Translations under genes and position numbers: made by a program
The notes under the pieces: model-generated
The model's input: the letters and a program-made list of their open reading frames with translations, nothing else
Told to the model about the DNA's origin: nothing
Database searches by the model: none
IMG/VR virus record: IMGVR_UViG_3300021406_000036
Span: 1 to 29,036 of that record
Strand: one strand, 5' to 3'
Source: a virus
DNA length: 29,036 nt
Shown here: positions 1-22,354 of the stretch, piece after piece
How the letters are laid out: every line of letters starts with the position of its first letter
How positions within the stretch are numbered: position 1 is the first letter of the stretch

Positions 1-1190
1 AGCGTGGTTCCAGGGCCCGACACGAAACCCGCGCCCGCGACCGCCTCCGGGTTTGTGTCGTAGATCGGCGAACCGGGCCCCACCTGCGTTTGCATCTGCT
101 GTTTGATGCCCTCGATAGCCTGTTGGCCACCCTTTGTGGTCACCACCGTGGCCCACTGTGCCAGCGATTGCGCCACTGATGCGCACGACTCCAGATAGTG
201 GCGCGATTCTTTGGCCCAGTCGATCATGGGGTACATTGGCGGGCATCCGAACAGCCACTTGCCGACCGTGCCAATCTTGCGATGGTAGACAGGCGAACCC
301 CACTTAACCGGGTGTCCGTTGATTGTCGCGGGCTTTGCGGGCGGGTCGTAATTGATTGCCGGGTACCACGCCTGCAATGTGACGCTCGCCTGCGATCCGC
401 TCGCCGCGTCGTGTGCCCGCTGCGTCCAGATGCGCTGATAGTACTGCGGCACGTCGGCGTCTTCGGGGTCCGTCCAGATGTCTTGGATTTCGGTCGCGTC
501 GATCAGCCTCTCTTCGCACTCGCCAGTGCCAGGGTCGGTGAAATAGACCCAGAACAGATTGCCGTCAGTAACCTTGGATCGCTGCTGCGCAGTGAGAGCC
601 ACGTGCCCGAATGTCTTCGCGTTGTTTTGGAGTATCTGTTTGATTACGTCGTTGGCGTCCTCATCGTCCGTCGTGACGTCGAACCCGCGGGCGAACGTGT
701 ATTGCGCGATCACATCCACGAGCCGCCGCGGAATCGGATTCTTGATGTAGTACAGGCGGCAGATGAGAATGATTTGCTGGATTCCCCAACGCGTGAATTC
801 GAGCCATGAGTAATTTATCTCGCGCTGCCACTGGACGTTTTGTAAGATCAACTCGTACATGCCGTACGCGCCGATTGGGTTCACATCGCCAATCGGGCCG
901 GCCTCTTGCAGCCCCAGAGATTCAGCCACGCGCACGGGTAGCCGTACCTGGGGCACGTCGCGGGCGCCGAGGTTCTGCGCTTGCCACGGGCCAATCCCGC
1001 ACATGCTCTGCGCCTCGACGATCTCCGCGAGAAACTGGCGAGCCTTTTCCATCTGCTCGTCTTGGCGCGACTGGCGGGAGGCGAGGGCTTGCGAGAGTGC
1101 GCGATTCTCCGCGACAAGTGCGGGTACAGGATTGCGCGGGTTAAGCTTGCGCCAGGCGGCGGCAAGCCAGCGGTTCAGCGTGGCCTTCAT
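1..1190 (-). CDS. Phage portal protein (C-terminus cut by window edge)
   Basis: The frame opens with ATG at 1190 and stays open to base 1, giving 396 codons without a stop. The translation has the usual portal layout: a basic, coiled N-terminus, then a segment reading NPIPRRLVDVIAQYTFARG near residues 150-170, followed by a mixed alpha/beta region with DGNLFWVYF and LIDATEIQDIW. Such text is typical of the stem/clip region of portal proteins, the dodecameric ring through which DNA enters the capsid. The ATG overlaps the TGA of the small upstream gene as ATGA, so translation is probably coupled. In most phages the portal gene directly follows terL; here 7 kb of glycan-type genes separate them. 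The assignment rests on general similarity and position. The 3' end lies outside the window. Confidence 0.8.
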   Translation of the reverse strand, partial: MKATLNRWLAAAWRKLNPRNPVPALVAENRALSQALASRQSRQDEQMEKARQFLAEIVEAQSMCGIGPWQAQNLGARDVPQVRLPVRVAESLGLQEAGPIGDVNPIGAYGMYELILQNVQWQREINYSWLEFTRWGIQQIILICRLYYIKNPIPRRLVDVIAQYTFARGFDVTTDDEDANDVIKQILQNNAKTFGHVALTAQQRSKVTDGNLFWVYFTDPGTGECEERLIDATEIQDIWTDPEDADVPQYYQRIWTQRAHDAASGSQASVTLQAWYPAINYDPPAKPATINGHPVKWGSPVYHRKIGTVGKWLFGCPPMYPMIDWAKESRHYLESCASVAQSLAQWATVVTTKGGQQAIEGIKQQMQTQVGPGSPIYDTNPEAVAGAGFVSGPGTT

Positions 1191-1438
1191 GTGGCTGAGT
1201 TTAGCGCAATTTTGAGCGCTTCGAACGCGGACGGATGGCAGAAGTAAGCGCCGTTGAGCTTAACTATCGAAGGCTGAGTGTAGTTTTTTGGATCTGATGC
1301 CAGCCGTTTTTCTCGGCGCTTGAAGTATGGTCCTCGTGTCGCGTGCTTGATTTGCCGTGGCCCTGGAAGGTTGGCGTCTACGAACACCTGCACGCCGGTA
1401 ATCGCCACCCCAAAACAGGTCAGATGATACTGCGTCAC
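1187..1438 (-). CDS. Small hypothetical protein, 83 aa
   Basis: This gene is nested tightly between a glycosyltransferase and the portal gene. It starts with GTG at 1438, which overlaps the glycosyltransferase stop as GTGA, and ends with TGA overlapping the portal ATG as ATGA. The product begins VTQYHLTCFGVAITG, has a basic middle (KRREKRLASDPK) and ends FEALKIALNSAT. I recognise no family. A longer frame upstream of the GTG exists, but it only shadows the glycosyltransferase gene. The two four-base overlaps are the main evidence that this is a real gene and set its start. Confidence 0.7.
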   Translation of the reverse strand: MTQYHLTCFGVAITGVQVFVDANLPGPRQIKHATRGPYFKRREKRLASDPKNYTQPSIVKLNGAYFCHPSAFEALKIALNSAT

Positions 1439-2196
1439 GGCAGCGGCGACCTCGCGTCTTTCCAGTACAGCAGCTTCGCCGGGTCCCAGGTGAAGTCGAA
1501 CCCAGGCGGGTATTGATCGTAATGAACGCCCCAGCCTTTGGCGTGCTCCTCCATCCGGCGACGTGCAAGCCGCGTCTCGATCTTGCGCCGAGCCTGCTCG
1601 GGCGTGCGGAACGGGTAGTGTTTCATCGTGAATTTCTGCGGGTAGACGCGCATGCCGGGGAAGGTGACCTCGTGCCCTCCGCCGGCGAGCTGCACGCGAC
1701 CCACGTTCTTCCAGAGCTTGCGGTTGGGGATTCGCGAGATGCAGTCGGCCTCGTCGTAGTAGCGAAAGTAACGCTCTGGGTTTTCTGAATCCGCGCGTCC
1801 ATCCCACATTGGACCGACGCAGTAGAACTGGAACACGCGGAAGTCGATGGCGTTGAAACCTGAAGATTGCACGCGTGCGACGGCTTGCCCGAGAGTCTCC
1901 CAGTCAAAGTAACTGCGCCGCCACTCATCCGCGTCTGTGTAGAGAATCCAATCGGCGTCGGACTCCGCGGCCAGATCCTCAATGCGCTTCAGGATCGCGG
2001 TGCAGTTTTGGATTGGATCGGGCACGGACGCGGGGAAGCGCTCGACGGTGCCGAATTGCATCGCTATTTCGTAGCTGTTATCTGTGCTCCACCCGTCGAT
2101 CACGTGCACCGCGCAGCCCTGCTGATGCAGGTGTCGCAGCGCGTGCGGGAGGATGTCGGCTTCCTGGTAGCAGGGAAGAAACGCTTGTATCTTCAC
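1435..2196 (-). CDS. Family 2 glycosyltransferase (GT-A fold)
   Basis: The 253-aa product opens MKIQAFLPCYQEADILPHAL, a standard GT2 first strand and nucleotide-sugar pocket, followed by IDGWSTDN (the DDGS-like step) and an acidic metal-binding motif YTDADEW at about residues 86-92, the DxD site. It should transfer a sugar from an activated nucleotide donor; the donor and acceptor cannot be read from the sequence. No signal peptide or membrane segment is visible, so it probably acts in the cytosol. It starts with ATG at 2196, overlapping the upstream TGA, and its stop overlaps the next GTG. It is one of three different GT2 genes in the TerL-portal cluster, together with an epimerase and methyltransferases, which supports a role in glycan assembly. 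Confidence 0.88.
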   Translation of the reverse strand: MKIQAFLPCYQEADILPHALRHLHQQGCAVHVIDGWSTDNSYEIAMQFGTVERFPASVPDPIQNCTAILKRIEDLAAESDADWILYTDADEWRRSYFDWETLGQAVARVQSSGFNAIDFRVFQFYCVGPMWDGRADSENPERYFRYYDEADCISRIPNRKLWKNVGRVQLAGGGHEVTFPGMRVYPQKFTMKHYPFRTPEQARRKIETRLARRRMEEHAKGWGVHYDQYPPGFDFTWDPAKLLYWKDARSPLP

Positions 2197-2456
2197 TGCG
2201 GCACTCCATCACAACGGATCTCATCAATAGCACTGGCATCCATCGCGAGCACCGCGTATCCGGTCGGATTGCACACGCCGCCGTCTGCGCGCTCTGTGAC
2301 CCCAATGAATGCCCCAACAGCCCACCAAGACGGAGACCATTCGCCCATGCCTGCGGAGTTTCGGTAATCGATCAACGTGACGCCGCACCGCGCGCATTTC
2401 TGAATAGGCCCTGTGGGCTGTCCCGCCAAGTGTACTCTGGTCTGAAATTCCGTCAC
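2193..2456 (-). CDS. Hypothetical protein with CxxC knuckle, 87 aa
   Basis: The start is GTG at 2456, overlapping the epimerase stop as GTGA; its own stop overlaps the following glycosyltransferase ATG. The protein has a CARCG knuckle near residue 20, one further cysteine in GGVCNPTGY and another in EIRCDG, so a structural zinc site is possible. The centre is aromatic and hydrophobic (EWSPSWWAVGAFIGV). I do not recognise the family. It sits inside the glycan cluster and is translationally coupled to both neighbours, but its role there is unknown. Confidence 0.7.
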   Translation of the reverse strand: MTEFQTRVHLAGQPTGPIQKCARCGVTLIDYRNSAGMGEWSPSWWAVGAFIGVTERADGGVCNPTGYAVLAMDASAIDEIRCDGVPQ

Positions 2457-3328
2457 AGCGCCAAGCCCTCCTCAATGCTCTTGAACTCGTACGGCCCGAT
2501 GATCGACAGCAGCCGCGTGCAGTCCGCTCGCGTGAAATGCTGATAACTCGCCGGGTCTGGGATCGGGCGATATTCAATATTCCCGGCCATCTCCGCGATA
2601 TCAGTGCTCGGCCACCTGCCGACAATGCGCGCCAGATCGTTGAAACTCGTCGCCGCGCCCGTGCCCACGTTGACGATGCCGGTAGCGTCCGACTCGATCA
2701 GCCGCATGATGCACTCGACCACATCCGACACGTGGATAAAGTCCTTGGCCTGCGTGCCGTCGCCGTAGATCACGATTGGCTCGCCGCGCTCTTTCGCGAT
2801 GCGCATCCATGTGGGCGGCGCTTGCTTACCGGGCGGTTTGAGTTCGTCGCCGGGGCCGTACGCGTTGAAGATGCGCAGCCCGAGGGTGTTCGTGAAGCTC
2901 GCCGCCATTAGTTCGGTCATGAGTTTCGATCTTCCGTAATGGCTGGCGCTAGGCCACAATCCTTGGCCTTCCCACTGCACAGGAGAGTTCATTGCGTCTC
3001 TTCCCATTGCACAAGTCCCGTACACCGAGCTGCTGCTGGCGTACACCAGGCGGGCACCGGACTGCGCGGCGAGTCGCAGCACGTTCCACGTGCCCATCAC
3101 GTTGCACGCGTAGTTGTCGGCCAGCGTCCAGGCGAAGCCCGCGTTGCTGCTGTACGCCGCGAGGTGCAGCACCACGTCGCATTCCATGCGGGTCAACAGC
3201 CGCACGTCGGCGTTGCGCGGCGGTCGTGCGCGGATGTCCAGGGAGTCGACTTCCCACCCGCGCGCCATTGCTGCCTTGACCGCGTACGAACCAATGAATC
3301 CGGCTGAGCCGGTGATTAGGAGTTTCAT
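2453..3328 (-). CDS. NAD-dependent sugar epimerase/dehydratase (extended SDR)
   Basis: The 291-aa product is an extended short-chain dehydrogenase. The Rossmann nucleotide loop TGSAGFIGS is at residues 6-14, the catalytic pair YxxxK is Tyr131 and Lys135 in HYGRSKL, and the upstream serine run of the active site is in YASSSSVYG. Downstream are NAYGPGD and GDGTQAKDFIHVSDV, typical of UDP/GDP/dTDP-sugar epimerases, reductases and 4,6-dehydratases. It would convert one nucleotide sugar into another, supplying the neighbouring glycosyltransferases. The exact substrate is not deducible. ATG at 3328 overlaps the preceding stop as ATGA, and its own TGA overlaps the next GTG. All expected catalytic residues are present, so the enzyme is probably active. 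Confidence 0.9.
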   Translation of the reverse strand: MKLLITGSAGFIGSYAVKAAMARGWEVDSLDIRARPPRNADVRLLTRMECDVVLHLAAYSSNAGFAWTLADNYACNVMGTWNVLRLAAQSGARLVYASSSSVYGTCAMGRDAMNSPVQWEGQGLWPSASHYGRSKLMTELMAASFTNTLGLRIFNAYGPGDELKPPGKQAPPTWMRIAKERGEPIVIYGDGTQAKDFIHVSDVVECIMRLIESDATGIVNVGTGAATSFNDLARIVGRWPSTDIAEMAGNIEYRPIPDPASYQHFTRADCTRLLSIIGPYEFKSIEEGLAL

Positions 3329-3561
3329 GTCTCAATCATCCTATCTGAATAGTAAGTACTACCACCCATCGCGTGAATGCATTGCCAAAACCAAAACGGA
3401 ATGTTGAACAGCTCGCCATGGGGGGAATAATTGAAAACCTGTTCCGGTGTCATTCTAATGCCGCTCTCCCCGGTCAGTTTGTTGCGGAACTCCATGTTCG
3501 CGGCTATAACTTGGCACATTTCGCGGTATGTGACGGGATTGGAGATCATCAGGAGTTTCAT
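3325..3561 (-). CDS. Hypothetical protein, 78 aa
   Basis: I chose ATG at 3561 because it overlaps the upstream methyltransferase stop as ATGA; an in-frame start 15 bases further upstream lies inside that gene. The product begins MKLLMISNPVTYREMCQ, carries an aromatic stretch FNIPFWFWQCIHAMGG and ends SDRMIET. I see no recognised motif. The pattern of short strand, helix, then aromatic C-terminus is compatible with a small soluble accessory protein. It is co-translated with the epimerase gene that follows. Confidence 0.65.
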   Translation of the reverse strand: MKLLMISNPVTYREMCQVIAANMEFRNKLTGESGIRMTPEQVFNYSPHGELFNIPFWFWQCIHAMGGSTYYSDRMIET

Positions 3562-4097
3562 TTTTCTAGGTACCAAAACCTTCCGTGCGTCTGCCTACCA
3601 GGCACGCACTCGTCGACCGCGCGTATCACACCAGCCACGCTCGGCAGTTCGACGTCGTAGTCATCGCCGCACAACAACTTGCGCGCGAACTGGCCGTACA
3701 TTTCGATGTCTTTCTTCGCGCCTTCGTAAGTGTGGTCGCCGTCGAGGTACACCAGATCCACTTCGTCCACCATCTCCAGCAACTCTTGCGCATGCGAGTC
3801 GCCCTTAATGGCGCAAATCTTGCGCTGCACACCAGCGCGCACTACGTTGTCCGCGAAGGCATCATATATGCCGATCAGTCCGTGCTCTGGTATGTCGCCC
3901 CACGTGTCGATGCACGTCACGCTCTCAACGCGCTGCGCAAACCAGATCGCCGAGCAGCCGTAGCACGTGCCGATCTCCAGCACCGTGCGGATGTCGTGCT
4001 TACGGATCAACTCTTCGAGCTTTTCGGCCACGTGCGGGTACAGCCACGCGTCCATCGGCTCGCCGTAGTGCCACGGCGTGAGCGGTAAGTGTTTCAA
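3558..4097 (-). CDS. Class I SAM-dependent methyltransferase (Methyltransf_24-like), copy B
   Basis: The product has the SAM-binding motif VLEIGTCYGCSAIWFA and the acidic motif LVYLDGDHTYEGAKKDIE, the signature of the Methyltransf_24 group, often found in glycan and natural-product clusters. The likely start is TTG at 4097, overlapping the preceding stop as TTGA, in line with the overlaps at neighbouring junctions; TTG at 4115 and a downstream ATG are alternatives. It is a paralogue of the next gene upstream: the same order of motifs, the same CIDTW/CVDTW strand, the same GDSH segment and a shared FWY C-terminus. Methylation of a sugar hydroxyl is a reasonable inference from the company it keeps but is not shown by the sequence. 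Confidence 0.85.
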   Translation of the reverse strand: MKHLPLTPWHYGEPMDAWLYPHVAEKLEELIRKHDIRTVLEIGTCYGCSAIWFAQRVESVTCIDTWGDIPEHGLIGIYDAFADNVVRAGVQRKICAIKGDSHAQELLEMVDEVDLVYLDGDHTYEGAKKDIEMYGQFARKLLCGDDYDVELPSVAGVIRAVDECVPGRQTHGRFWYLEK

Positions 4098-4699
4098 GGC
4101 CGCACCCAGTACCAAAACGGCCCGACGTGCTGCGCTTCCGGCAGCAGTTTGTTGACAGCCTCGATGACACCAAACGCCGGCGTCTTCCCGTCGGACTCAT
4201 AGCGCACGGAGTAGTCGTCGCCGCACAGGACGACGCGCGCCTTGTCCTGGTAAATCTCGATGTCGCGGCACACCGACGCGTAATCGTGGCGCGCATCCAG
4301 ATACACCAGGTCCGCCACTGGCACCTCACCGTGTACATAGTGCGAGTCGCCCTTGATAGGCGTGATCTTGTGCCACACTCCGCTGCGCATCACGTTGTCG
4401 CGGAATAGCGGAAAGAAATCGCGCGGCAGGTCCCAGCGACGTAGTGTGCCGACGAGGTTGTTCTCGCTCTCGTAAGTCGCGCCTTCGAACCATGTGTCAA
4501 CGCAGTGAACCTGTTTGATTGATTCGAACTGCGCGAACCAGACGGCAGAGAGGCCAAGGAAAGAACCCACCTCGACGACCGAACTTATTCCGCGTTCGCA
4601 GATTAGATGGGTAAGCGTAAGCCGATTAGCTTGGTCAAACCAGCCTGGGATTAGAGGACTGGCCACATTCGGAAAGACATCGAATATTGTCTTGCTCAC
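4094..4699 (-). CDS. Class I SAM-dependent methyltransferase (Methyltransf_24-like), copy A
   Basis: This 201-aa protein shares its architecture with the gene just downstream: motif I VVEVGSFLGLSAVWFA, then CVDTW, IKGDSHY, and the acidic motif LVYLDARHDYASVCRDIE, ending GPFWYWVRP. The downstream paralogue has DGDH where this one has DARH, so the metal or substrate site may differ. The start is GTG at 4699, overlapping the previous TGA as GTGA. The pair probably arose by tandem duplication and then diverged. Likely role: methylation of a sugar or glycan intermediate made by the neighbouring glycosyltransferases; this is inferred from context. Confidence 0.85.
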   Translation of the reverse strand: MSKTIFDVFPNVASPLIPGWFDQANRLTLTHLICERGISSVVEVGSFLGLSAVWFAQFESIKQVHCVDTWFEGATYESENNLVGTLRRWDLPRDFFPLFRDNVMRSGVWHKITPIKGDSHYVHGEVPVADLVYLDARHDYASVCRDIEIYQDKARVVLCGDDYSVRYESDGKTPAFGVIEAVNKLLPEAQHVGPFWYWVRP

Positions 4700-5475
4700 T
4701 TCGGCAACCTCGACTTTCCTGGCGCAAATCCGTGCCCTTCCGGCCAGTGGCCGTGAATCTTGGTAAACAGATCTTCGTGCGCCCTCACGTCGTGCGGGTG
4801 CTCGGGATCGTGCCGGAACGTGGACTTGAGCCCCGTGGACTCTGGCAGGTGGTCGACCAGCACGCCATCGTACACGCCTAGCTTCAGGCCAGCCTGGCGG
4901 ATGCGCAGCGAGTAGTCGTCGTCTTCGAGCCCGTAGCCGCGGGCACCGGGACCACCAGCGTTAATGCCAAACCGCTCGTCGAGCAGTCCAACGTAATCGA
5001 TCGTGCTGCGCGGGATATAGACACACGCGAACACGAGCATGGTGCGCTCTTCGCGGATTTCGTTCGGCCAACCCCGGCGCTGAACTAAATTGATCGTGCC
5101 CACCGAGCCGTGCGTGAAACTTGGACATACCGCGCCGTAGTCAAGATGCGCTCGCAAGGTGCGCTGAAGTAACTCGAAGCCGCGCGGCTTCCTCAGCAGC
5201 GCGTCGTCATTCATCAGCACCACGTCGTCAGTGCCCGTCTCGCGGATGCCGTCGTTGCAAGCACGAGAGAAAACGAAGGGCTTTTGTCCGATCAAAATTC
5301 GCAGAGTGTCATCGGCAATCGAGTCGGGGCCAAAGATAACCTCGCGGAGGTTTTCGCAAGAGTCGCCGTCCCACACCACAATCACCCGGCACGTCTCGCC
5401 CATCGCGCGGATCTGCCGCACACACGCGGTCAGGTTGGCGATATTGCGACTGGGGATGATTACGCTGTAACTCAT
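4696..5475 (-). CDS. Family 2 glycosyltransferase
   Basis: The 259-aa product starts MSYSVIIPSRNIANLTACV, the classic GT2 first strand, continues with VVWDGDS and reaches the divalent-metal motif MNDDALL near residue 108. The region reading GLLDERFGINAGGPGARGYGLEDDDYSLRIRQAG (given here only as its key parts: DERF, GYGLEDDD and LRIRQAG) is the acceptor-side motif common in rhamnosyl- and galactosyl-type GT2 enzymes, where the ED pair is the usual catalytic base. No membrane segment is visible. ATG at 5475 overlaps the stop of a small membrane protein. It is a different subfamily from the other two GT2 genes in this cluster. Confidence 0.88.
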   Translation of the reverse strand: MSYSVIIPSRNIANLTACVRQIRAMGETCRVIVVWDGDSCENLREVIFGPDSIADDTLRILIGQKPFVFSRACNDGIRETGTDDVVLMNDDALLRKPRGFELLQRTLRAHLDYGAVCPSFTHGSVGTINLVQRRGWPNEIREERTMLVFACVYIPRSTIDYVGLLDERFGINAGGPGARGYGLEDDDYSLRIRQAGLKLGVYDGVLVDHLPESTGLKSTFRHDPEHPHDVRAHEDLFTKIHGHWPEGHGFAPGKSRLPK

Positions 5476-5630
5476 TTATTTGCTCCGAACGGCCAAAAGA
5501 ATTCCACCACGGCACCGAATACCTCGCTTGCTACTGCCAGCATGAGCGCCAGCCACCAATACAGAGTCGTGGCGGCGCGCTTCTTCGATGCCTTGTGAAT
5601 GCGCCAGAAGTAAACCTCGAGAGCCATCAT
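5472..5630 (-). CDS. Small membrane protein, 52 aa
   Basis: Reading from ATG at 5630 gives MMALEVYFWRIHKASKK, then one hydrophobic segment (LYWWLALMLAVASEVFGAVV) at about residues 23-42, and an aromatic tail ending FGANK. The basic residues before the segment predict an N-in orientation. The stop overlaps the following glycosyltransferase ATG as ATGA. The start lies four bases after the stop of the preceding short gene. It may anchor or assist the glycan enzymes at the membrane, or be a superinfection-type moron; neither can be decided from sequence. Confidence 0.65.
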   Translation of the reverse strand: MMALEVYFWRIHKASKKRAATTLYWWLALMLAVASEVFGAVVEFFWPFGANK

Positions 5631-5633
5631 TAG

Positions 5634-5753
5634 CTAGCGCTTCCTTTCGCGCCGCTCCATCTCCGACATGAATTGCTCTCTCCTGTCCTTCGGGTAGTCA
5701 GACCACAGCCAGAGCACCACCAAGACAATCACGAAACCGATAATGTAGATCAT
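5634..5753 (-). CDS. Short membrane protein, 39 aa
   Basis: ATG at 5753 follows the stop of the cysteine-rich gene by one base. The protein is one membrane segment right at the N-terminus (IYIIGFVIVLVVLWLW), then a charged tail SDYPKDRREQFMSEMERRERKR given in part: it is rich in Arg and Glu and probably helical. This layout is like many one-span phage peptides. A longer in-frame start exists upstream but falls inside the preceding gene and would bury the membrane segment. Confidence 0.6.
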   Translation of the reverse strand: MIYIIGFVIVLVVLWLWSDYPKDRREQFMSEMERRERKR

Positions 5754-5754
5754 G

Positions 5755-6003
5755 TTACTTTGCTCCCCTCTCTTCGAAAAGAACACACCGCTTCGCTGAT
5801 AGCACGCAGTCGCGGTATTCGTCTTCTGTTGCGCCGTGCCAGTAATCCCAGACATCCTTTGCGCACTCCATCGAGAAGTTTTCGCCGGGAGTGGATTCTG
5901 AGTAACCAGGGATGGCTACGCTTATCGCCATGTGAACGCACTCCACGCAGCATTTATCAGGGTGGATCACAGGCAGAGACTTATCGATCGAATACGTGAT
6001 CAC
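5755..6003 (-). CDS. Cysteine-rich small protein, 82 aa
   Basis: GTG at 6003 overlaps the methyltransferase stop as GTGA. The product has paired cysteines CCVECVH near residues 18-24, then MECAK, DCVLSAKRC and a terminal FEERGAK. The spacing of a CxxCxH knuckle followed by scattered single cysteines is common in small phage proteins that may bind zinc, whose function is not established. The long in-frame extension upstream merely shadows the methyltransferase gene. Confidence 0.65.
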   Translation of the reverse strand: MITYSIDKSLPVIHPDKCCVECVHMAISVAIPGYSESTPGENFSMECAKDVWDYWHGATEDEYRDCVLSAKRCVLFEERGAK

Positions 6004-6620
6004 GATTTCACCGCCTCCAGGACAGCCGTGAATTTCCAAACATCGCACACCACATAACGAGATCGCGAGTTGCCAGCGAACTCGGTATACATACGCTCCG
6101 TCACTCCGAGCATCTTGAACCGTGCCGTGATGCCGTACGCCTCGGCGAACCGCTTGTGTGCCGGCGAGCCGTCGGTGTAATACTGGAGCGCGTTCGGCGT
6201 CCACGGCGTCACATGTGTCGGGTCTTGGAAGTGCCCCGCTCCCTTCGCCGCGTCGGGGCACTCCATTGTCAGGATGCCGCCAAGCTTGAGCACGCGGTGC
6301 GCCTCGTTCATTACGTGGATTCGGCCAGACCAGTGACGCTCTTTCCTGCCAGACCCGTACGGGTAAGCGCCCTTTGGAATACACCGTGCGCACTCCTGTG
6401 GCATCACGTGCACGCAATCTGAAATGTGCTCGAAGATATCCGCAGCGTAGATCTCCTCAACGCTGGAGTCTTCCCACGGCCACGGTAGCGCGAGGTCGGC
6501 GCGCTCGAACTTGGCGGTAGCGATGGGGACTCTGGAAGTGCTCTGTGTCGGCGCAACGAGATCAACGTTGACCCAATCGCCGCCGCGCAGATCCGTCGAA
6601 CAGCCAAGATTCAATCGCAT
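6000..6620 (-). CDS. SAM-dependent methyltransferase (Methyltransf_11 type)
   Basis: The 206-aa protein opens MRLNLGCSTDLRGGDWVNVD, the glycine-rich SAM loop plus the acidic ribose-binding residue, followed by DIFEHISD, NEAHRVLKLGGILTMECPD and a C-terminal beta region. This is the pattern of the COG4627-like methyltransferases frequent in phages and in surface-polysaccharide clusters. It belongs to a different branch from the two Methyltransf_24-like genes nearby. ATG at 6620 lies 10 bases inside the end of the preceding small gene. The substrate is unknown; context suggests a glycan. Confidence 0.85.
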   Translation of the reverse strand: MRLNLGCSTDLRGGDWVNVDLVAPTQSTSRVPIATAKFERADLALPWPWEDSSVEEIYAADIFEHISDCVHVMPQECARCIPKGAYPYGSGRKERHWSGRIHVMNEAHRVLKLGGILTMECPDAAKGAGHFQDPTHVTPWTPNALQYYTDGSPAHKRFAEAYGITARFKMLGVTERMYTEFAGNSRSRYVVCDVWKFTAVLEAVKS

Positions 6621-6760
6621 TCCAACACCACCTGCTCCCGGTCGTCAAAGCGATAGCGCACGCTGGTCAGCGGCACACAATCCCCGCTTTGATGCCAGAC
6701 AACAGCCTCCGCGCTTCCCTCAAGCCTTTCTAACTCCGCTATTAGTTGGCTAACTGTCAC
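6611..6760 (-). CDS. Small hypothetical protein, 49 aa
   Basis: The frame from GTG at 6760 reads [20 protein letters not shown] and ends VVLECD. The start overlaps the glycosyltransferase stop as GTGA, and the end overlaps the next gene by 10 bases. The opening helix (SQLIAELER) followed by a beta-rich half containing a VWHQ segment matches a widespread class of very small phage proteins with an N-terminal SQLI-L helix; no function is established for them. It was found by reading the gap between the two flanking genes. Confidence 0.65.
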   Translation of the reverse strand: MTVSQLIAELERLEGSAEAVVWHQSGDCVPLTSVRYRFDDREQVVLECD

Positions 6761-7476
6761 AGTCTCATCGCCCTTTCACAGTACGCGTCAAACTCGGGTG
6801 CCCGTCGCCACACGTCCGGGTTGCGCAGCATCACCGCGCGGTCGTAGCCCTCGGTGTTGCTAGCGTGGATACCGCACACTATGCGGGGTTCTGCTGGCCT
6901 CGGGTGCGGATCGGGCTCCCTTCCGAATTCGCTGCCTGCCAGCAGGGGAATGTGCGTGCCGACGCTCAGACACTCGCGACTCACCAGCGGCGTGCGCATC
7001 CACCGCATGTCCTCGTGCGGCGCGTCGTCGAATGGCTGCCTTTCCCAGAGCTCTCGCCTGTAGAGCAGGCTCGCTCCCGCGGCCCAGTTCGCCTGGTGGT
7101 TGCGGTAGAGCCACGCTTCATTCGCTGGCATTCCGCCGATGGTGGACTTGGGGAACTTGTTGCGCGTGTCCCAGAAAAGCAGCTCGCGGTAGCCGACGCA
7201 CTGTTTGCCGGACGCGAGCAAAAGTGCAGCCTGCTCTTCAATTCTGCGAGGATGACTAATGTCATCGTCATCAGCATGCGCGATCATTTCTCCAGTGGCG
7301 TATGCGTTCGCAACATTACGGATGTAGCCGATTGTGTGACCAACGTACGGCGCGGTGTCCAACGCGACAAGTTCCAGATTGGGGTAAGTCTGCGCCTGTA
7401 TGGAGTTTCTTGCCCTAACTTGCATCGCATCGCGGCCCGATGATAACAGCATTACGACCGATACCTTAGGATGCAC
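6757..7476 (-). CDS. Family 2 glycosyltransferase with HADDDD motif
   Basis: The product (about 239 aa) begins [16 protein letters not shown], has the GT2 helix [20 protein letters not shown] and a strong metal-binding motif [10 protein letters not shown] near residue 92. Later motifs include [12 protein letters not shown], typical of GT2 proteins related to hyaluronan- and LPS-type transferases. Start choice: GTG at 7476 has AGAGG five bases upstream, while the GTG at 7482 has no room for a ribosome site, so the downstream start is favoured. The gene overlaps the end of the HNH-like gene by 11 bases. It is the first and most upstream transferase of the cluster in transcription order. Confidence 0.88.
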
Positions 7477-8011
7477 TGGCACCTCTCATCCTTGCCCACA
7501 CCGCTTTCATGGAGGCGCTTCTGAGCGCGCGATCCACTGGCCTTTGGTTGGCGCGCTGCTCTTTGCGAGTGGCCCATCGGCAATTATCCGGCGAGTACGG
7601 CCCGTCATTATCGATTCGCTCCAGCGTCATCCCATCCGGTCGTGGAGCCATGTCTTCGAGGAAGTTATCGAACAAGAGCCACCGCTCACAGACCTTGATT
7701 CCGCGGCCTCCATAGTGCTGATACCCGCCAGATTTTGGATTTCTGCATCGCTGCACCATTGATCCCCAAACGTGATACAAGCGAGTATCGGACATTCCGT
7801 GGCGACGTTTAAGGATGCTATGAAAGGCCCTAGAAACACACCCACAGCTAGATGAGTGTCCATTCTTGAGAGAGCCCCCAGCAATCAATCTTATCGCGCC
7901 ACACACACATGCACAGCGGCACGCAGCTTCTCTGCCTTTTCTGGGGATTCGCTCTAATACCAGCCACGCCCCGAACATGCGTCCAGATAAATCTTGGTGG
8001 GTTACACTCAT
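7466..8011 (-). CDS. HNH-like / zinc-binding phage protein, 181 aa
   Basis: ATG at 8011 overlaps the preceding stop as ATGA and has GGAAGG just upstream. The N-terminal part carries cysteines CRCACVCG and SCGC that look like a zinc ribbon. Then come [24 protein letters not shown] and, near residues 133-152, a block containing [19 protein letters not shown]. The last block resembles the HNH core of homing-type endonucleases, with Asn residues kept but the first His position occupied by Arg. Families like this are common in phages as free-standing HNH or AP2-type genes. It may be a homing endonuclease that inserted here, or a degenerate DNA-binding relative. Nuclease activity is uncertain because of the missing His. 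Confidence 0.65.
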
Positions 8012-8187
8012 CGCGCCTTCCACCTCTCGCGGTAGATCGCGTACGCGTCCTGCAATCCCTCGCCGTGCAGTTGCAGCGCCTGGCCGGCCATCTCGATCAG
8101 TCGCCCGATCATCTGCGCGCCGGCGGGCACGATCAGCGTGGCGACCAGGAAGGCGAACAGCGCGCAGTAGAATGCGAACGGCATCAC
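8008..8187 (-). CDS. Small membrane protein, 58-59 aa
   Basis: A GTG at 8187 overlaps the previous stop as GTGA and is followed at once by ATG at 8184; either can start the gene. The product is one hydrophobic segment ([20 protein letters not shown]) and then an amphipathic helix with the ending YRERWKAR. The stop overlaps the next ATG. It resembles the other two single-span proteins in this cluster in size and topology, although not in sequence. Confidence 0.6.
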
Positions 8188-8351
8188 TTCGCCGCCTTTC
8201 GCTCGACGTGCTTGCGGTCATGCTCCTCAACGCCAGCTTGCGTCTCGACGGCGCGCTCCACCCACAGCCGCAACAACAGGCCTGATTTGGCTGTCGCCAC
8301 CTTGGCCGCCATGTACGCGTCGTCGGAAATCATGACGCTCAGTAATTTCAT
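8184..8351 (-). CDS. Small ribbon-helix-helix-like protein, 55 aa
   Basis: Reading from ATG at 8351 gives [20 protein letters not shown] and then a helix with [12 protein letters not shown], ending [10 protein letters not shown] short N-terminal strand followed by two helices of this length is the layout of ribbon-helix-helix DNA-binding proteins, but the similarity is weak. No clear Shine-Dalgarno is present; a hexamer like CATTAT lies seven bases before the ATG, so a leaderless or very short-leader mRNA is conceivable. It is the first gene of the glycan cluster, where a local regulator would be expected. Confidence 0.5.
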
Positions 8352-8568
8352 GAGTCCAATAATGCCCTAAACACTCACAAGATTGCAATGGCCACATCTC
8401 TGGAAAAGTACCACCCGTTATATGGCTATAAGTTTTTGTGATTTGACGGTCGCGCCAGCACGCCGATATAATCGCGGGTTCGCGCGCATCAACCTTGGAG
8501 ATTTAATACTCTTGTGTTCTTCTCCGGCGCACACCGCCGACGCGACCAGCTAGCTGTGCTTCGTGCCG
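8352..8568. other. Intergenic region between terL and the glycan cluster
   Basis: About 217 bases without a convincing gene, the largest gap in the left half. It holds the plus-strand promoter described separately. Minus-strand signals for the genes at 8351 are weak: TTGCAA, an 18-base spacer and CATTAT lie right before the ATG, and TATAAC occurs further upstream. A short inverted repeat CGGCG/CGCCG lies just after the terL stop but has no T tract. One tiny plus-strand frame (GTG, 22 codons) follows the promoter; I would not call it a gene. Confidence 0.6.
8443..8472 (+). promoter_or_regulatory. Near-consensus sigma70 promoter, antisense to terL
   Basis: TTGACG at 8443-8448 matches the -35 consensus at 5 of 6 positions, and TATAAT at 8467-8472 is a perfect -10, with an 18-base spacer. 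Transcription would begin near 8479 and run rightward, opposite to every gene within 10 kb, into the 3' end of terL. No plus-strand gene follows it. It could give an antisense or small RNA. The match is better than any minus-strand promoter I found. Confidence 0.55.
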
Positions 8569-9813
8569 TTAGATCGGGCTGATGGTGTAGCGTTGAGGTG
8601 CGGCGCTCATCGCGCCGGATCGCGGATCAATATAGCGCGTCTCCTCTCGCGGACCAGTGAGCGCCTGCCAGGCAATCGCCAGAGCCATCACAGTGTCATC
8701 GTGCAAGCCAGCCGGCGCGCTGTATCGCATATTGCCGGATGGCGACCGCGTGCCCTCGAATGCCTGAAGCTCGCCGATCAGAACCGGGTCATTCGGAATG
8801 CGGATCGTGCCGCGCTCGAAAGCCAGGGCTAGGCCCTGAATGATCGATGCCTTGCTCGGGCCGGTGGTCAGAAATCCGGCTACTGGCAATCGATCCGCCT
8901 GGAGTTGCTCCACCACGGGACCACCCATCGAGTTGGTTTCGGCCACGATCCAACAGCGGGCGCCGTTGCGCTTCCAGAATTCGATCAGCCGCGCGCGCTG
9001 CGCTCCGTACTCGATGCCGCGGAATCGATCGATGTCCACCACCTGTCCAGTCGGACCCAGCGCGACGAACACCGTGTAATCTCCCGTGCGCCCCCAATCG
9101 ACGCCGATCATCGCCGCCGGTGCGCGCGAGATTTCGCCAACGCAATCGGTGATGCGACGGAAGACGGCGCCGGCCCAGACTACGAATTGCGCGAGGTACT
9201 CTTGAGCGAACGCCAGATCCGTCAGATCCGCCTGGGCGTCCGCAATCTCTTGCGCATCGATAAACGGATTTGTTGCCGTCGGCATCTGCCAACTCGCCCA
9301 TCCCGGTTCGTGCGCTTGGCCTCTCTGGTAGAGTGTGTGGAAGTAACTCGCGGTTCCTTTCGGCGTGCTGAGAAACCACGCTTCGCCGCGATAGTCGGAA
9401 AGCTGCGCGCGAACGGATTGCTCCCAAGCGGCCTCGAAGTTCGGCACGATAGCAGCCTCATCGATGATGATGCCGGCATACGCGCGGCCGCGTCCGGCGT
9501 CGGGCTTGTCGAGCGACCAGCATTCCAGCGATCCACCGCCGATCACCTCGAGCCGCTCGGCCTCTAGGCTGCGCTCTGTGACGGGCTCCAGGGTTTGCTT
9601 GATCTGTGCCCAGGCATCTTTCAGCAGGCGGTAGGTTGGAGCGAACCAGGCCGCAGGCTTGCCCTCCAGCAGCAGTCTGACGATCACCTCCATAGCGATG
9701 GTGGTCTTGCCCCACCGGCGCCCGCAACAGAGCGCGTTGAAGCGCCGGCGGTTGGCCAGCACTTCACTCTGCGCGGGGTGTGGTCGCGGTAGCCTTAGCT
9801 GGACGGTCTTCAT
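8569..9813 (-). CDS. terL: Terminase large subunit
   Basis: The 414-aa product is the DNA-packaging motor. The ATPase domain has Walker A as CGRRWGKT at residues 30-37, Walker B as GIIIDEA with Asp118 and Glu119, and the coupling motif FLSTPKGT soon after. The C-terminal RNase H-like nuclease domain begins IGVDWGRTGDYTV, giving the first metal-binding Asp, and ends with HDDTVMALAIA carrying the late acidic residues. All key residues are present. I chose ATG at 9813 rather than TTG at 9822; the first 50 bases overlap the terS gene. Length fits the family. In most phages the portal would come next; here a non-structural cluster intervenes. Confidence 0.96.
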   Translation of the reverse strand: MKTVQLRLPRPHPAQSEVLANRRRFNALCCGRRWGKTTIAMEVIVRLLLEGKPAAWFAPTYRLLKDAWAQIKQTLEPVTERSLEAERLEVIGGGSLECWSLDKPDAGRGRAYAGIIIDEAAIVPNFEAAWEQSVRAQLSDYRGEAWFLSTPKGTASYFHTLYQRGQAHEPGWASWQMPTATNPFIDAQEIADAQADLTDLAFAQEYLAQFVVWAGAVFRRITDCVGEISRAPAAMIGVDWGRTGDYTVFVALGPTGQVVDIDRFRGIEYGAQRARLIEFWKRNGARCWIVAETNSMGGPVVEQLQADRLPVAGFLTTGPSKASIIQGLALAFERGTIRIPNDPVLIGELQAFEGTRSPSGNMRYSAPAGLHDDTVMALAIAWQALTGPREETRYIDPRSGAMSAAPQRYTISPI

Positions 9814-10210
9814 ACTCGACAATGATCTTTACTGGCGCGCCGCCTTCGGAAGCACCTTCGTGCTGAATCCGCTGGGCAGGCCGGAACTTTGCGCTGTTGG
9901 CCCGCAGTACCTCGATCAGCAGTGAGTCGCTGAATTCGGTCTCATATCCGACTATCTTGCCTTTGTAGCGTACAGGCTTTCTAAGGCCCTCGTGGGCGCG
10001 CCGTACGGCTTCATCCTCCAGCGTTCGGGACGCCGCTTCCGTGGCGTCCTTGAAGCGCTGTGGGTAGGTCGGATCTTCTCTCAGCCAGTTGTAGTGGCAC
10101 TGGCGGTTGATCTTCGCCCATCGCGCCGCCTGGATGACCGAGGCACACGCGCTAAATGCGGCGAGGAATCGCTTTTGGTGCCTACTACTGTCAATGATTG
10201 TTGGTGGCAA
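9764..10210 (-). CDS. terS: Terminase small subunit
   Basis: This 148-aa protein directly precedes and overlaps terL. Residues 10-50 form a helix-turn-helix region (FLAAFSACASVIQAARWAK, then QCHYNWLREDPTYPQRF), the DNA-recognition fold of the phage terminase small subunits that select the packaging site. The middle is helical (DATEAASRTLEDEAVRRA) and would drive ring assembly; the C-terminus is charged. The start is TTG at 10210, five bases after the methyltransferase stop, without a strong ribosome site. Position and HTH together make the assignment secure. Confidence 0.88.
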   Translation of the reverse strand: MPPTIIDSSRHQKRFLAAFSACASVIQAARWAKINRQCHYNWLREDPTYPQRFKDATEAASRTLEDEAVRRAHEGLRKPVRYKGKIVGYETEFSDSLLIEVLRANSAKFRPAQRIQHEGASEGGAPVKIIVEYEDRPAKATATTPRAE

Positions 10211-10215
10211 AGGGT

Positions 10216-10884
10216 TTACTCTGCGCCCATCCTACCGCAAACCGCGTCATTTGCGAAGAGCACACCCTGACGCAGCCGATTCGCGGCGATCTCGCAGTAG
10301 CGCTCCTCGATCTCGATTCCGATGGCCGGAATATTCCACATGCGCGCAGCGGCCAGTGTGGGACCGCAGCCGCAATAGGGATCAACAATCGACCCAACTT
10401 TGCCGAGTTGCTGGATTGAGAAACTCATCAACGAAACGGGCTTCTGAGTCGGGTGGTAGAACATCTCGCCGCCTCGCGCCTCGCCGCCCCATTGCAACTC
10501 AAACATGCGGGTCGATTGACGAACGTTTGTCCAAGCCATGTCGCAATCGGAAGCGAAAAACCCTTCCTTGCGCCCGTTCGGAATCTTGTTCCACACGAGC
10601 CAACCGCCCGAAGCCGGAAGCTTGTCCGCATACCAGTGCGCGCCCCACAGAATACACGGCCAATCGCCCAGCAAGTGTGCGGGGTCAAACGCCTTCTCAT
10701 CTCCCTGGACCCGGCGCGTTAGCCGATCGCTCCAACGCTTCGAGCCGTCCGACCCACGGAGAGGCACGTAAGCCATTCCGTACGGCGGGTCGGAGACGAT
10801 GGCCTTGACAGACAGTGTTGGTAGGATCTCCCGACAGTCGCCGTGATAGATCGTGATTCCATCTTGCTCGAAATACGGCTTCAC
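10216..10884 (-). CDS. DNA N6-adenine/N4-cytosine methyltransferase, class beta
   Basis: The 222-aa enzyme has the catalytic motif SDPPY at residues 31-35, HPTQKP at 144-149 and the SAM-binding motif VDPYCGCGPTLAAA at about 167-180. Catalytic motif first and SAM motif last is the beta order of the N6_N4_Mtase family. DPPY occurs with N6-adenine enzymes and also in some N4-cytosine ones, so the target base is not certain. GTG at 10884 overlaps the preceding stop as GTGA. No restriction endonuclease is next to it, so it is a solitary enzyme, perhaps protecting phage DNA from host restriction or affecting packaging, as it sits right before terS. Confidence 0.9.
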   Translation of the reverse strand: MKPYFEQDGITIYHGDCREILPTLSVKAIVSDPPYGMAYVPLRGSDGSKRWSDRLTRRVQGDEKAFDPAHLLGDWPCILWGAHWYADKLPASGGWLVWNKIPNGRKEGFFASDCDMAWTNVRQSTRMFELQWGGEARGGEMFYHPTQKPVSLMSFSIQQLGKVGSIVDPYCGCGPTLAAARMWNIPAIGIEIEERYCEIAANRLRQGVLFANDAVCGRMGAE

Positions 10885-11120
10885 GCGCGCTCCCTCGCTT
10901 GGCGCTCTGCCGCGGCGATCGCGGCGCGCTCGATCATCTCAGCCGCTCGTTTCCACGTCAACCTTGACGGCGCCCCGGTAAACAGCCCAGACTCGCGAAC
11001 GCGGATTACGTCAGAGTCTACCCACACTCCCTGCAGTTCGCCGGACTTACGGAGAGTGATCAAACCGTGAATAATCTCAGACCGCCGCGGCTCTCGCGGC
11101 ACTGGGTCAGTCACGATCAT
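10881..11120 (-). CDS. Hypothetical protein, 79 aa
   Basis: ATG at 11120 overlaps the upstream stop as ATGA; its stop overlaps the methyltransferase GTG. The product begins MIVTDPVPREPRRSEIIHGL, has a short beta-rich centre (LQGVWVDSDVIRVRESGLF) and ends in an alanine- and arginine-rich helix. The layout could suit a small DNA-binding protein, but I see no diagnostic motif. The longer in-frame extension covers the preceding gene and is not used. Confidence 0.65.
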   Translation of the reverse strand: MIVTDPVPREPRRSEIIHGLITLRKSGELQGVWVDSDVIRVRESGLFTGAPSRLTWKRAAEMIERAAIAAAERQARERA

Positions 11121-13300: not shown

Positions 13301-13572
13301 TCCAGATCACCATGACCGTGGCGCTTGACGGGCCTCCCGATTATCCCTAGATCGGCCAGCCTCCATGCCGCTACGCCATCGGAAACCGCGAAAGCCTTGG
13401 CGAAATTCTTCAGTTGACGGTCATCGGTCAAATCAAATCCGTCCGGCCAATTTTCTCTAATCCACTTACGGACGAACTTCTCTGGCATGAGTAGGCACAT
13501 AGCGAATAAGTTAGCCTCGGAGTCTTCCTCTCTCGCCAGCGCGCAGGTTCGCTCTTTCTCGGCGTTCGTCAT
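13297..13572 (-). CDS. ImmA/IrrE-like fragment lacking the HExxH zinc motif, 91 aa
   Basis: The product reads like the C-terminal half of an ImmA/IrrE (M78) metallopeptidase: EEDSEANLFAMCLLMPEKFV holds the third zinc ligand region (EANxFAxxLLMP), and AKAFAVSDGVAAWRLADLGII matches the family's helix-turn-helix-like end. The upstream HExxH motif, which supplies the catalytic Glu and two His ligands, is absent, because the ATG at 13572 lies just 11 residues before that segment and overlaps the C5 methyltransferase stop as ATGA. It therefore cannot be a normal protease. Family members cleave phage repressors; a truncated form could bind a repressor without cutting it. That is inference. Confidence 0.65.
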   Translation of the reverse strand: MTNAEKERTCALAREEDSEANLFAMCLLMPEKFVRKWIRENWPDGFDLTDDRQLKNFAKAFAVSDGVAAWRLADLGIIGRPVKRHGHGDLE

Positions 13573-22264: not shown

Positions 22265-22354
22265 ATGCGACTCTACGGACTTGCAATCACGATCTTCATT
22301 GCCTGGGCGACGTTCCACGCGCTCGGGATCAACCCGCTCGCGCTGGTGCGCTAG
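22265..22354 (+). CDS. Tiny membrane peptide on the opposite strand, 29 aa
   Basis: ATG at 22265 has a GGAGG ribosome site four bases upstream, the strongest in this region. The peptide is MRLYGLAITIFIAWATFHAL and then GINPLALVR, one membrane segment with a basic residue at each end. An in-frame ATG at 22229 would add twelve residues starting MPRRRKLL. Its TAG stop overlaps the TAG of the convergent tail gene in a shared CTAG, so the two genes end on the same bases. Confidence 0.5.
   Translation: MRLYGLAITIFIAWATFHALGINPLALVR

Follow-up and report, generated by a model that had tools for sequence, protein, structure and literature searches.

A glycosyltransferase and methyltransferase cassette between terL and portal in an uncultured phage lineage, with a putative role in virion glycosylation

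A cassette of glycan-type enzymes located between the genes for the terminase large subunit (terL) and the portal protein is a hallmark of the phage lineage represented by the DNA analysed here (IMG/VR record IMGVR_UViG_3300021406_000036, 29,036 nucleotides, hereafter called the window). Of 56 IMG/VR contigs that carry a related portal gene and at least 4 kb of sequence upstream of it, 51 have a Pfam match to a GT2 glycosyltransferase on the same strand and no more than 12 kb upstream of portal. We consider it likely that these enzymes act late in infection to assemble, in the cytoplasm, a methylated glycan on a virion protein, in a manner resembling that proposed for Corndog-type mycobacteriophages but with enzymes that have no detected relationship to theirs; both the acceptor and the sugar are putative. 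Late glycosylation and methylation of a virion protein was also the first choice of a first-pass annotation of the window, and it is still the best-supported prediction from sequence, given that the cassette resides with head genes and is not dispersed in relatives.

Enzymes and architecture of the terL-to-portal run

The whole run from terL to portal lies on one strand (Table 1). The portal gene is cut by the contig end, and a complete 665-aa portal is present in a 42,399-bp record (L046) whose terL and portal are 100% identical to those of the window. Relatives of the terL protein (L002-L013) exhibit 67-100% identity. Positions 1187 to 8351 had been described in the first-pass annotation as a glycan-type cluster with three distinct GT2 glycosyltransferases, three SAM-dependent methyltransferases, an epimerase/dehydratase with a full active site and three one-span membrane peptides. 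Pfam and PHROG matches and sequence motifs uphold the location and the enzymes, including the assignment of two methyltransferases to Methyltransf_24 and, weakly, of one to Methyltransf_11. However, only two clear one-span peptides are found, because no other protein of the run reaches a value of 1.6 when membrane spans are scored by the maximal 19-residue Kyte-Doolittle mean. Moreover, the HNH endonuclease, which probably starts near position 8011 as judged from its translation, and the 55-aa ORF upstream of it probably do not participate in glycan building. Several small ORFs without assigned function complete the block.

Table 1. Features encoded by the terL-to-portal run of the window
Feature	Position	Strand	Evidence or remarks
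Portal, cut by contig end	3..1190	-	phrog_10963, E 1.7e-41
83-aa small ORF	1187..1438	-	ATGA overlap with portal; GTG start at 1438 overlaps GT_C stop
GT_C, GT2 glycosyltransferase	1435..2196	-	PF00535 9.5e-06, 26.1 bits; PF13704 2.2e-05; invariant DADEW
87-aa small ORF	2193..2456	-	91% identical in L047, no match in L048
NAD-dependent nucleotide-sugar epimerase/dehydratase	2453..3328	-	PF01370 8.6e-39; phrog_540 3e-51
83-aa small ORF	3325..3576	-	phrog_16799 (unknown function) 2.5e-07
MT24a, class-I methyltransferase	3558..4115	-	PF13578 Methyltransf_24, 2.4e-13
MT24b, class-I methyltransferase	4094..4699	-	PF13578 Methyltransf_24, 1.2e-09
GT_B, GT2-type glycosyltransferase	4696..5475	-	PF00535 5.1e-07, 30.2 bits; NDD and EDDD motifs
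One-span membrane peptide	5472..5630	-	Kyte-Doolittle maximum 1.97
One-span membrane peptide	5634..5855	-	Kyte-Doolittle maximum 2.27
82-aa cysteine-containing small ORF, GTG start	5755..6003	-	4-nt overlap with MT11; no Pfam match (5755-6000)
MT11, SAM-dependent (class-I) methyltransferase, core cassette	6000..6620	-	PF08241 Methyltransf_11, weak: 22.2 vs cut-off 21.2 bits
49-aa small ORF	6611..6760	-	4-nt overlap with GT_A
GT_A, GT2 glycosyltransferase	6757..7482	-	PF00535 1.8e-05, 25.2 bits; invariant D71/D73/D74
HNH endonuclease	7466..8011	-	phrog_374 1.3e-57, residues 75-230 of 254-aa ORF 7466-8230
55-aa ORF, function unassigned, first of run	8184..8351	-	no Pfam match
terL, 5' flank of block	8569..9822	-	PF03237 Terminase_6N 6.6e-12

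All three glycosyltransferases exceed the curated PF00535 cut-off of 23.3 bits (25.2-30.2 bits), alignments of 9-11 sequences show their DxD-type motifs to be invariant, and none carries a hydrophobic span on the Kyte-Doolittle scale. The predicted structure of GT_A, which is the cassette member kept most widely across the lineage, is a GT-A fold (pLDDT 82.5) with SpsA and heparosan synthase as its nearest neighbours. The cell-surface glycan enzymes RmlT and TarP/TarS are also among the nearest folds. We considered this structure as a clue to the acceptor and set it aside, since its neighbours are ordinary GT-A/GT2 enzymes that are uninformative on this point. The GT_B profile weakly matches beta-4-galactosyltransferase 7 (E 0.0079), and GT_C has no sequence match in the PDB.

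MT24a and MT24b are paralogues with approximately 41% identity, and MT24a additionally resembles PF04989 (Rhamnosyl O-methyltransferase/CmcI) at 1e-4, which is below the cut-off. The weak MT11 assignment concerns a protein that can be aligned with its relatives. In the translation of the epimerase/dehydratase, GxxGxxG and YxxxK are visible, which we take to be the motifs expected of such an enzyme, and its nearest solved structures are MoeE5 (1.9e-25), then an unnamed epimerase/dehydratase, then UDP-glucuronate decarboxylases. Searches by tblastn of GT_A, GT_B, GT_C and MT24b against 50,697 phage records yielded no match, and MT11 gave a weak one in Synechococcus phage S-CRM01. Likewise, megablast of window positions 1-11000 against phage records returned nothing.

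The ATGA/GTGA overlaps that the earlier annotation saw as linking the cluster to portal are indeed present. With the ORFs as first called, 4-nt overlaps occur at seven of the 17 terL-to-portal junctions, and in-frame GTG starts at 1438 and 6003 raise this to nine, the last of which joins the portal gene. A gap of 217 nt separates terL from the block; a search for a minus-strand promoter-like site found none. Relative to L047 and L048, the seven enzymes have dN/dS values of 0.10-0.31, indicative of purifying selection, and because the gene group is also kept in many contigs, the block is not a chance assemblage. The periphery is less constant. The HNH body and the 83-aa ORF at 1187-1438 have no match in L047 or L048, and the latter ORF has a 58% identical copy in L050. 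The 55-aa ORF is 95% identical in L048, approximately 58% in L005-L007 and 38% in L047. Elsewhere in the window, two large proteins rich in Ser, Thr and Gly (22351-25869 and 25866-29036) were taken by eye as tail proteins.

Association of the cassette with portal and with other head types

Across all 74 contigs with a related portal, 112 of 119 GT2 matches are located within the same 12 kb upstream of portal and on its strand, and four of the other seven can be read as the wrap-round of circularly permuted contigs. Thus, when related phages were checked for the same enzymes scattered elsewhere, no such pattern was seen. GT2 matches surpass the Pfam cut-off in only 48 of the 74 records; at an E value of 1e-3, 62 of 74 have a match. 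One lineage member (L177) has no glycosyltransferase by either profile, and therefore the cassette may be dispensable. Among 77 ORFs sampled from the upstream regions of ten relatives, GT2 enzymes, Methyltransf_24, FkbM and TylF methyltransferases, epimerases, GDP-mannose dehydratase and GFO/IDH proteins are abundant, and a single GT11 is present.

Nine of ten portal-upstream ORFs tested in relatives are terL genes, with best matches to phrog_2 (five) or phrog_979 (four), whereas a terL of the window's type was matched in only three of 18 records. This suggests that the cassette remains linked to portal even where terL differs. The first-pass annotation had viewed the cluster as inserted between terL and portal; its position is as stated, but the cluster is a long-standing feature of the lineage and not a single 'insertion' event. 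In five named phage records, whose portals are 28-33% identical, no sugar-related gene is annotated in the terL-to-portal interval.

The GT_A, MT11 and GT_B families recur at 57 loci of phages that lack a window-type portal. At 44 of these loci the cassette has a recognised head or tail gene as a same-strand neighbour (13 gave none), and 31 of the 57 have a capsid gene upstream of the cassette. We tentatively propose, as a possibility with somewhat less than even prospects, that a large group of tailed phages, nearly all of them uncultured, is normally sugar-coated. Such phages would carry a modular core of GT_A, methyltransferase and GT_B, accompanied by interchangeable enzymes for sugar synthesis and capping, and this core would have moved between unrelated head operons while remaining beside structural genes.

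Candidate acceptors and competing explanations

If the cassette decorates virions, the epimerase/dehydratase would make or convert a nucleotide sugar, perhaps of the UDP-uronate or pentose type if the naming of the closest solved structures is a guide. Sugars would be added one by one by the three GT2 enzymes, which lack predicted membrane spans; GT_A may start or build the glycan core, and the methyltransferases may cap or modify the sugars. Because its genes form a single, tightly packed run on the 5' side of portal, the cassette would be translated together with the head proteins. The acceptor would be a late structural protein, with the major capsid protein or the tail tube as the first candidates by analogy with Corndog and Che8, and the phage might benefit from particle shielding or altered surface binding. 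Counted against a purely cytoplasmic pathway are the two membrane peptides in the block.

These peptides speak for remodelling of the host surface, wherein O-antigen, capsule or another host glycan would be altered during infection or lysogeny, blocking superinfection or the re-adsorption of progeny to debris. The gtr serotype-conversion cassettes of temperate phages are an example of phage-encoded sugar transfer. The relatedness of the GT_A fold to SpsA, RmlT and TarP/TarS, and the tyrosine integrase (PF00589) found in five of 31 large contigs, are also consistent with this explanation. However, the other 26 of these possibly incomplete contigs have no such integrase, none of the 31 has a GtrA flippase (PF04138; positive in 7 of 14 controls), the glycosyltransferases of the window's block have no hydrophobic spans, and the position of the cassette is fixed beside head genes. 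A portal profile search of genome contigs reduced 73 pattern matches to one relative, a 3.9-kb contig with a 49% identical portal in an 'uncultured Acidobacteriia' MAG, and in a set of 399 genomes from the same class this MAG alone has a portal match. We judge remodelling of the host surface to be improbable.

T4-type phages and others with hypermodified DNA encode glycosyltransferases as well. In the present case, the enzymes could glycosylate phage DNA bases, aided by the C5 methyltransferase encoded at 13569-14651. Phage glycosyltransferases acting on DNA are known (Pyle 2024, as cited in the excerpted text of PMC12619734), and the window encodes both a C5-type and an N6/N4-type DNA methyltransferase. 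Yet these two genes (10216-10884 and 13569-14651) are outside the block, and Pfam places the block's own methyltransferases in Methyltransf_24/11, although two of them weakly match phrog_2675, a family named DNA methyltransferase (approximately 1.5e-07). The cassette also travels with head genes, and a search of the 31 large, possibly incomplete contigs found no base hydroxymethylase of the thymidylate-synthase type (PF00303), whereas 9 of 14 controls gave a match. Tet_JBP (PF12851) was found in none of the 31 contigs, and control genomes were equally silent. We regard DNA hypermodification as very improbable. Both of these explanations had been offered in the first-pass annotation and lose weight through the lack of matches to PF00303 and GtrA in the 31 contigs and to a tyrosine integrase in 26 of them.

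A narrower form of virion glycosylation, overlapping with the one we favour, holds that only a tail or receptor-binding protein is modified, such that adsorption is tuned rather than the head shielded. The operon logic is identical, glycans also occur at the tail-tube C-terminus according to the excerpted text of PMC12619734, and the window has the large Ser/Thr/Gly-rich proteins mentioned above. Nevertheless, in this lineage the cassette occupies the head-gene end of the operon, and elsewhere it is often beside capsid or adaptor genes, and thus we consider restriction to the tail unlikely.

With virion glycosylation in mind, we examined 46 capsid sequences of at least 340 aa, from which look-alikes, shorter fragments and L086 had been dropped. 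A Pro/Ser/Thr-rich loop of 29-43 residues is present in 35 of 41 lineage capsids, and the corresponding segment is 18 residues long in the five named records and 19 residues long in the other six lineage members. This loop was rejected as proof of the acceptor because four of the six loop-less lineage members still have glycosyltransferase evidence (L184, L195 and L203 by Pfam; L176 by a weak GT_A match and a wrap-round match). The remaining two are L177, mentioned above, and L191, which has only 473 bp upstream and cannot be judged. The AlphaFold capsid model is of moderate quality (pLDDT 66, with part of the loop at 41-48), which suffices for its HK97-type matches but not for claims of exposure. 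Co-divergence of glycosyltransferases and capsid was likewise discarded as an acceptor clue, as no consistent pattern emerged. For example, L051 has a closer capsid yet more distant glycosyltransferases, four of the window's seven enzymes have no match there, and its GT_B dN/dS is 0.54, at high divergence.

Relation to known phage glycosylation systems

Phage-encoded virion glycosylation has already been reported, second-hand in our sources, for some mycobacteriophages. We recognised no description of the terL-portal glycan block of this lineage in the open-licence PMC literature. What is new here is that a similar layout, whose enzymes show no detected relationship to those of cluster O mycobacteriophages, occurs almost throughout one uncultured lineage and again next to head genes of other types. 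The general claim becomes testable on particles of one isolate. Excerpts of two soil studies list glycosyltransferase genes, including GT2, as auxiliary genes for carbon use: GT1, GT2 and glft1 represent almost 40% of total AMGs in one (PMC12501426), and GT4 is among the commonest in the other (PMC11222151). Our comparison covered other contigs than theirs, and in it the genome context of GT2 genes of this type points to particle decoration. If the sugar-coated state proposed above is real, many virome GT2 genes listed as 'auxiliary' to carbon metabolism would serve particle decoration instead, and phages would diversify in their capsid glycans much as they do in host-range modules.

Che8 and other F1-type mycobacteriophages (Freeman et al. 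2023, cited second-hand) resemble the window in having phage-encoded glycosyltransferases and are reported to carry a virion glycan. The excerpts of PMC11256854 and PMC12619734 mention virion glycans in Che8 and at the C-termini of capsid and tail-tube proteins. In the F1 phage Maravista, however, these genes are near the genome 3' end (excerpt of PMC11256854) rather than in the head operon.

The closest parallel is offered by the cluster O phages Corndog, Catdawg and Firecracker. The excerpted text of PMC4351075 describes an O-methyltransferase and three glycosyltransferases between the portal and protease genes of Corndog, notes that capsid peptides were unexpectedly scarce, and proposes that these enzymes modify the capsid. 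Alignment by hhalign of eight profiles (seven enzymes and one major capsid protein) with five Catdawg proteins gave a best probability of 2.8%, in a weak test with single-sequence targets and no positive control. The cluster O cassette follows portal and precedes the capsid protease, whereas that of the window lies between terL and portal, and the part of the cluster O stretch shown has no annotated epimerase, unlike the window. What the two have in common is the presence of glycosyltransferase genes with adjoining methyltransferase genes inside the structural operon, beside portal, in a tightly packed array that in cluster O includes overlaps of 4-8 nt.

Gene content between terL and portal

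All recognisable genes of the 29,036-base window lie on the minus strand, and the enzyme block that the first-pass annotation placed between terL and portal is confirmed in its gene content, order, and Pfam and PHROG matches, except that it encodes two one-span peptides rather than the three claimed. The enzymes run in the order GT_A, MT11 (Methyltransf_11), GT_B, MT24b and MT24a (Methyltransf_24 paralogues), an NAD epimerase/dehydratase and GT_C, where the three GTs are GT2 glycosyltransferases; the block also contains small unknowns and an HNH gene. Four-nucleotide overlaps are present at seven of the 17 terL-portal junctions with the first-called starts, or at nine once the in-frame GTG codons at 1438 and 6003 are taken as starts, and the single sizeable gap in the run (217 nt) lies directly 3' of terL. 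No minus-strand promoter-like site was found in positions 1-10500, compared with two plus-strand matches and a mean of 3.3 in shuffled sequence.

Coordinates of selected features of the window
Feature	Position	Strand	Remark
portal	3-1190	minus	incomplete (cut); downstream flank of block
GT_C	1435-2196	minus	GT2 glycosyltransferase
GT_B	4696-5475	minus	GT2 glycosyltransferase
GT_A	6757-7482	minus	GT2 glycosyltransferase
HNH endonuclease	7466-8230	minus	phrog_374
terL	8569-9822	minus	upstream flank of block
N6/N4-type DNA methyltransferase	10216-10884	minus	external to block
C5-type DNA methyltransferase	13569-14651	minus	external to block; Pfam match confined to residues 6-77

The HNH gene lies within this run, and the lack of a match to its body in the close relatives L047 and L048 suggests a mobile, homing-type insertion. 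A second HNH gene, at 8765-9376 of the 42,399-base relative L046 and 3' of a MuF-like gene, also has no match in L047 or L048.

Distribution and exchange of the block

The block is not a one-off, but is found across terL and portal relatives. Terminase and portal identical (100%) to those of the window occur in IMG/VR 3300050821_003356 (42,399 bases), which is circularly permuted with respect to the window. Close relatives share the order GT_A, MT11, GT_B, a variable stretch (MT24b, MT24a, epimerase), GT_C and portal, although this order varies: GT_B precedes MT11 and GT_C is absent in L051, and GT_C precedes GT_B in L149 and L165, for example. Among 74 portal-bearing records, 62 have a Pfam GT2 match at E 1e-3 (42 of 50 and 20 of 24) and 48 have one above the Pfam cut-off (34 and 14).

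A search of related phages, as the first-pass annotation had proposed, places a GT2 match upstream of portal in nearly all judged portal contigs: 51 of the 56 records whose sequence extends 4 kb or more beyond portal on the upstream side carry a same-strand GT2 match no more than 12 kb away, a limit of our own choice, and nine of the 18 with less than 4 kb have a match in the upstream zone. These counts are not independent events, given near-duplicate records such as L055/L056, L159/L161 and L165/L202. In total, 112 of 119 GT2 matches fall in this zone on the same strand; if matches were scattered at random over a 42-kb genome, approximately 29% would be expected there (hand arithmetic, strand ignored). 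Four of the seven outliers are readable as wrap-round of circularly permuted contigs, which is certain only for the window-bridged record; the others are one match 12.5 kb upstream and two on the opposite strand. The five records without a zone match comprise two wrap-round cases (L162, L176), two matched by a GT_A profile made in this analysis (L193, L198), and L177, the sole member of the 56 with no glycosyltransferase by either the Pfam GT2 or the GT_A profile search. L177 also has a short capsid loop and a tyrosine integrase (contig G052), and offers a natural control for the acceptor search. By eye, a large run of sugar-type genes (glycosyltransferase, methyltransferases, oxidoreductase) occupies L193:841-9961, upstream of portal, and this phage also has a tyrosine integrase (G066).

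Among named phages, all 36 INPHARED records matched by the portal query fall below 60% identity. Portal lies immediately 3' of terL in D_HF5_3 (source listed as saliva, and possibly not an isolate), Kukla, LuckyBarnes and Montesquieu, and two short hypothetical genes separate them in Methanoculleus virus L4768. No annotated sugar gene lies between terL and portal in the five of the 36 records inspected.

The window's own terL was matched in three of 18 records searched, and a different terL was shown in five of the 15 others (L048, L051, L058, L174, L203). Because the upstream terL differs in this way, block and portal travel together while terL is exchanged. Nine of ten large ORFs 5' of the block in ten relatives are terL genes (best match phrog_2 in five, phrog_979 in four), and the tenth (L192) is a sugar-epimerase-like protein. 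Compared with L046, L047 and L048 have a portal that is 96% identical, a major capsid protein that is 69% identical and no match to the window's terL, which represents strong mosaicism within a single head operon. We regard as a strong new point that the cassette is an exchangeable, lineage-defining component of the head operon.

The same enzymes also accompany other head types. A GT_B profile found 104 encoding stretches, from which 80 loci were retained; 57 of the 77 newly fetched loci had no window-type portal within the DNA examined. On labels taken from PHROG-named representatives, these 57 have a recognised head gene upstream on the same strand in 39 cases (a capsid gene in 31) and an adaptor, tape-measure or head gene downstream in 26. 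Head or tail genes flank 44 loci on at least one side (neither side in 13), and therefore the enzymes are tied to the virion operon across differing head types.

The upstream regions of ten relatives, at loci hand-picked out of 42, yielded 77 ORFs with lengths of 170 aa or more, with two of 79 listed ORFs omitted (L193:8532-9074, HNH-like by eye, and L165:1269-3590). Pfam families, which overlap as a single protein may match several, were PF00535 (11), PF13704 (10), Methyltransf_24 (10), FkbM (7), epimerase (5), TylF (4), GDP-mannose dehydratase (4), GFO/IDH (2) and GT11 (1); a PHROG scan of this ORF set also gave three HNH endonucleases and three terL. Single matches to sigma-70 region 4 (PF04545, 1.1e-13) and radical SAM (3.8e-07) were also seen among the relatives' ORFs.

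Likely acceptor and rival explanations

The scarcity or absence of rival markers, together with the location among head genes, favours a virion protein as the acceptor. If the block enzymes instead modified DNA bases, a base hydroxymethylase might accompany them, but PF00303 was absent from 31 large contigs, which may be incomplete (positive control 9/14); a Tet_JBP search gave no match in the 31, nor in its controls. Host-surface glycan change of the flippase or lysogeny type is likewise made less likely by the absence of GtrA from these contigs (control 7/14); five of them have a tyrosine integrase. Location and these tests support, as a probable reading, the glycosylation and methylation of a virion protein originally proposed.

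Among described systems, the Corndog group comes closest, with an O-methyltransferase and glycosyltransferases beside portal that resemble the block's content and setting. Corndog is reported to encode an O-methyltransferase and three glycosyltransferases between portal and protease (PMC4351075); the authors of that study noted that capsid peptides were scarce and suggested modification by methyl groups and glycans. The annotated records of Catdawg and Firecracker share this layout. Later articles that cite Freeman 2023 (PMC11256854, PMC12619734) report glycans on the capsid of Che8 and at the C-termini of capsid and tail-tube proteins. Profiles of the window enzymes and major capsid protein reached a best hhalign probability of 2.8% against five Catdawg proteins, as single-sequence targets and with no positive control. 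No relation was detected in this weak test, so the cassette, which probably works like that of Corndog, is not assignable to the same gene family.

The head module 3' of portal encodes a MuF-like protein, a protease and an HK97-type capsid protein, the last at 13026-14468 in L046. A Pro/Ser/Thr-rich loop of 29-43 residues is present in 35 of 41 lineage capsids, versus 18 residues in homologues from five named records. Since four of the six members with a short loop still show glycosyltransferase evidence, we consider the loop a candidate acceptor, not evidence.

A portal-profile scan of genome contigs gave one relative, on a 3.9-kb contig of an Acidobacteriia MAG, and among 399 genomes of that class the match was in that MAG alone. 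By eye, L062, a portal-bearing contig of an Acidobacteriia MAG, has repeat-like and collagen-like ORFs at 684-2157 and no evident glycosyltransferase in the 2.5 kb 5' of portal.

Enzyme families, folds and selection

All three glycosyltransferases exceed the Pfam GT2 cut-off of 23.3 bits (25.2-30.2 bits), and their DxD-type motifs are invariant in alignments of 9-11 sequences. Estimates of dN/dS, which are rough as several dS values are close to saturation, are 0.10-0.31 for the seven enzymes against L047 and L048 (portal, 0.05-0.06) and 0.29-0.54 for the three of seven with a match in the more distant L051.

The AlphaFold model of GT_A (pLDDT 82.5) has a GT-A fold, and its nearest structures include SpsA, heparosan synthase and RmlT; heparosan synthase B is nearest by sequence profile. 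GT_C has no match to PDB sequences at an E threshold of 0.01, and GT_B shows a weak likeness to beta-4-galactosyltransferase 7 (E 0.0079). The epimerase is nearest to MoeE5, followed by an unnamed epimerase/dehydratase and UDP-glucuronate decarboxylases.
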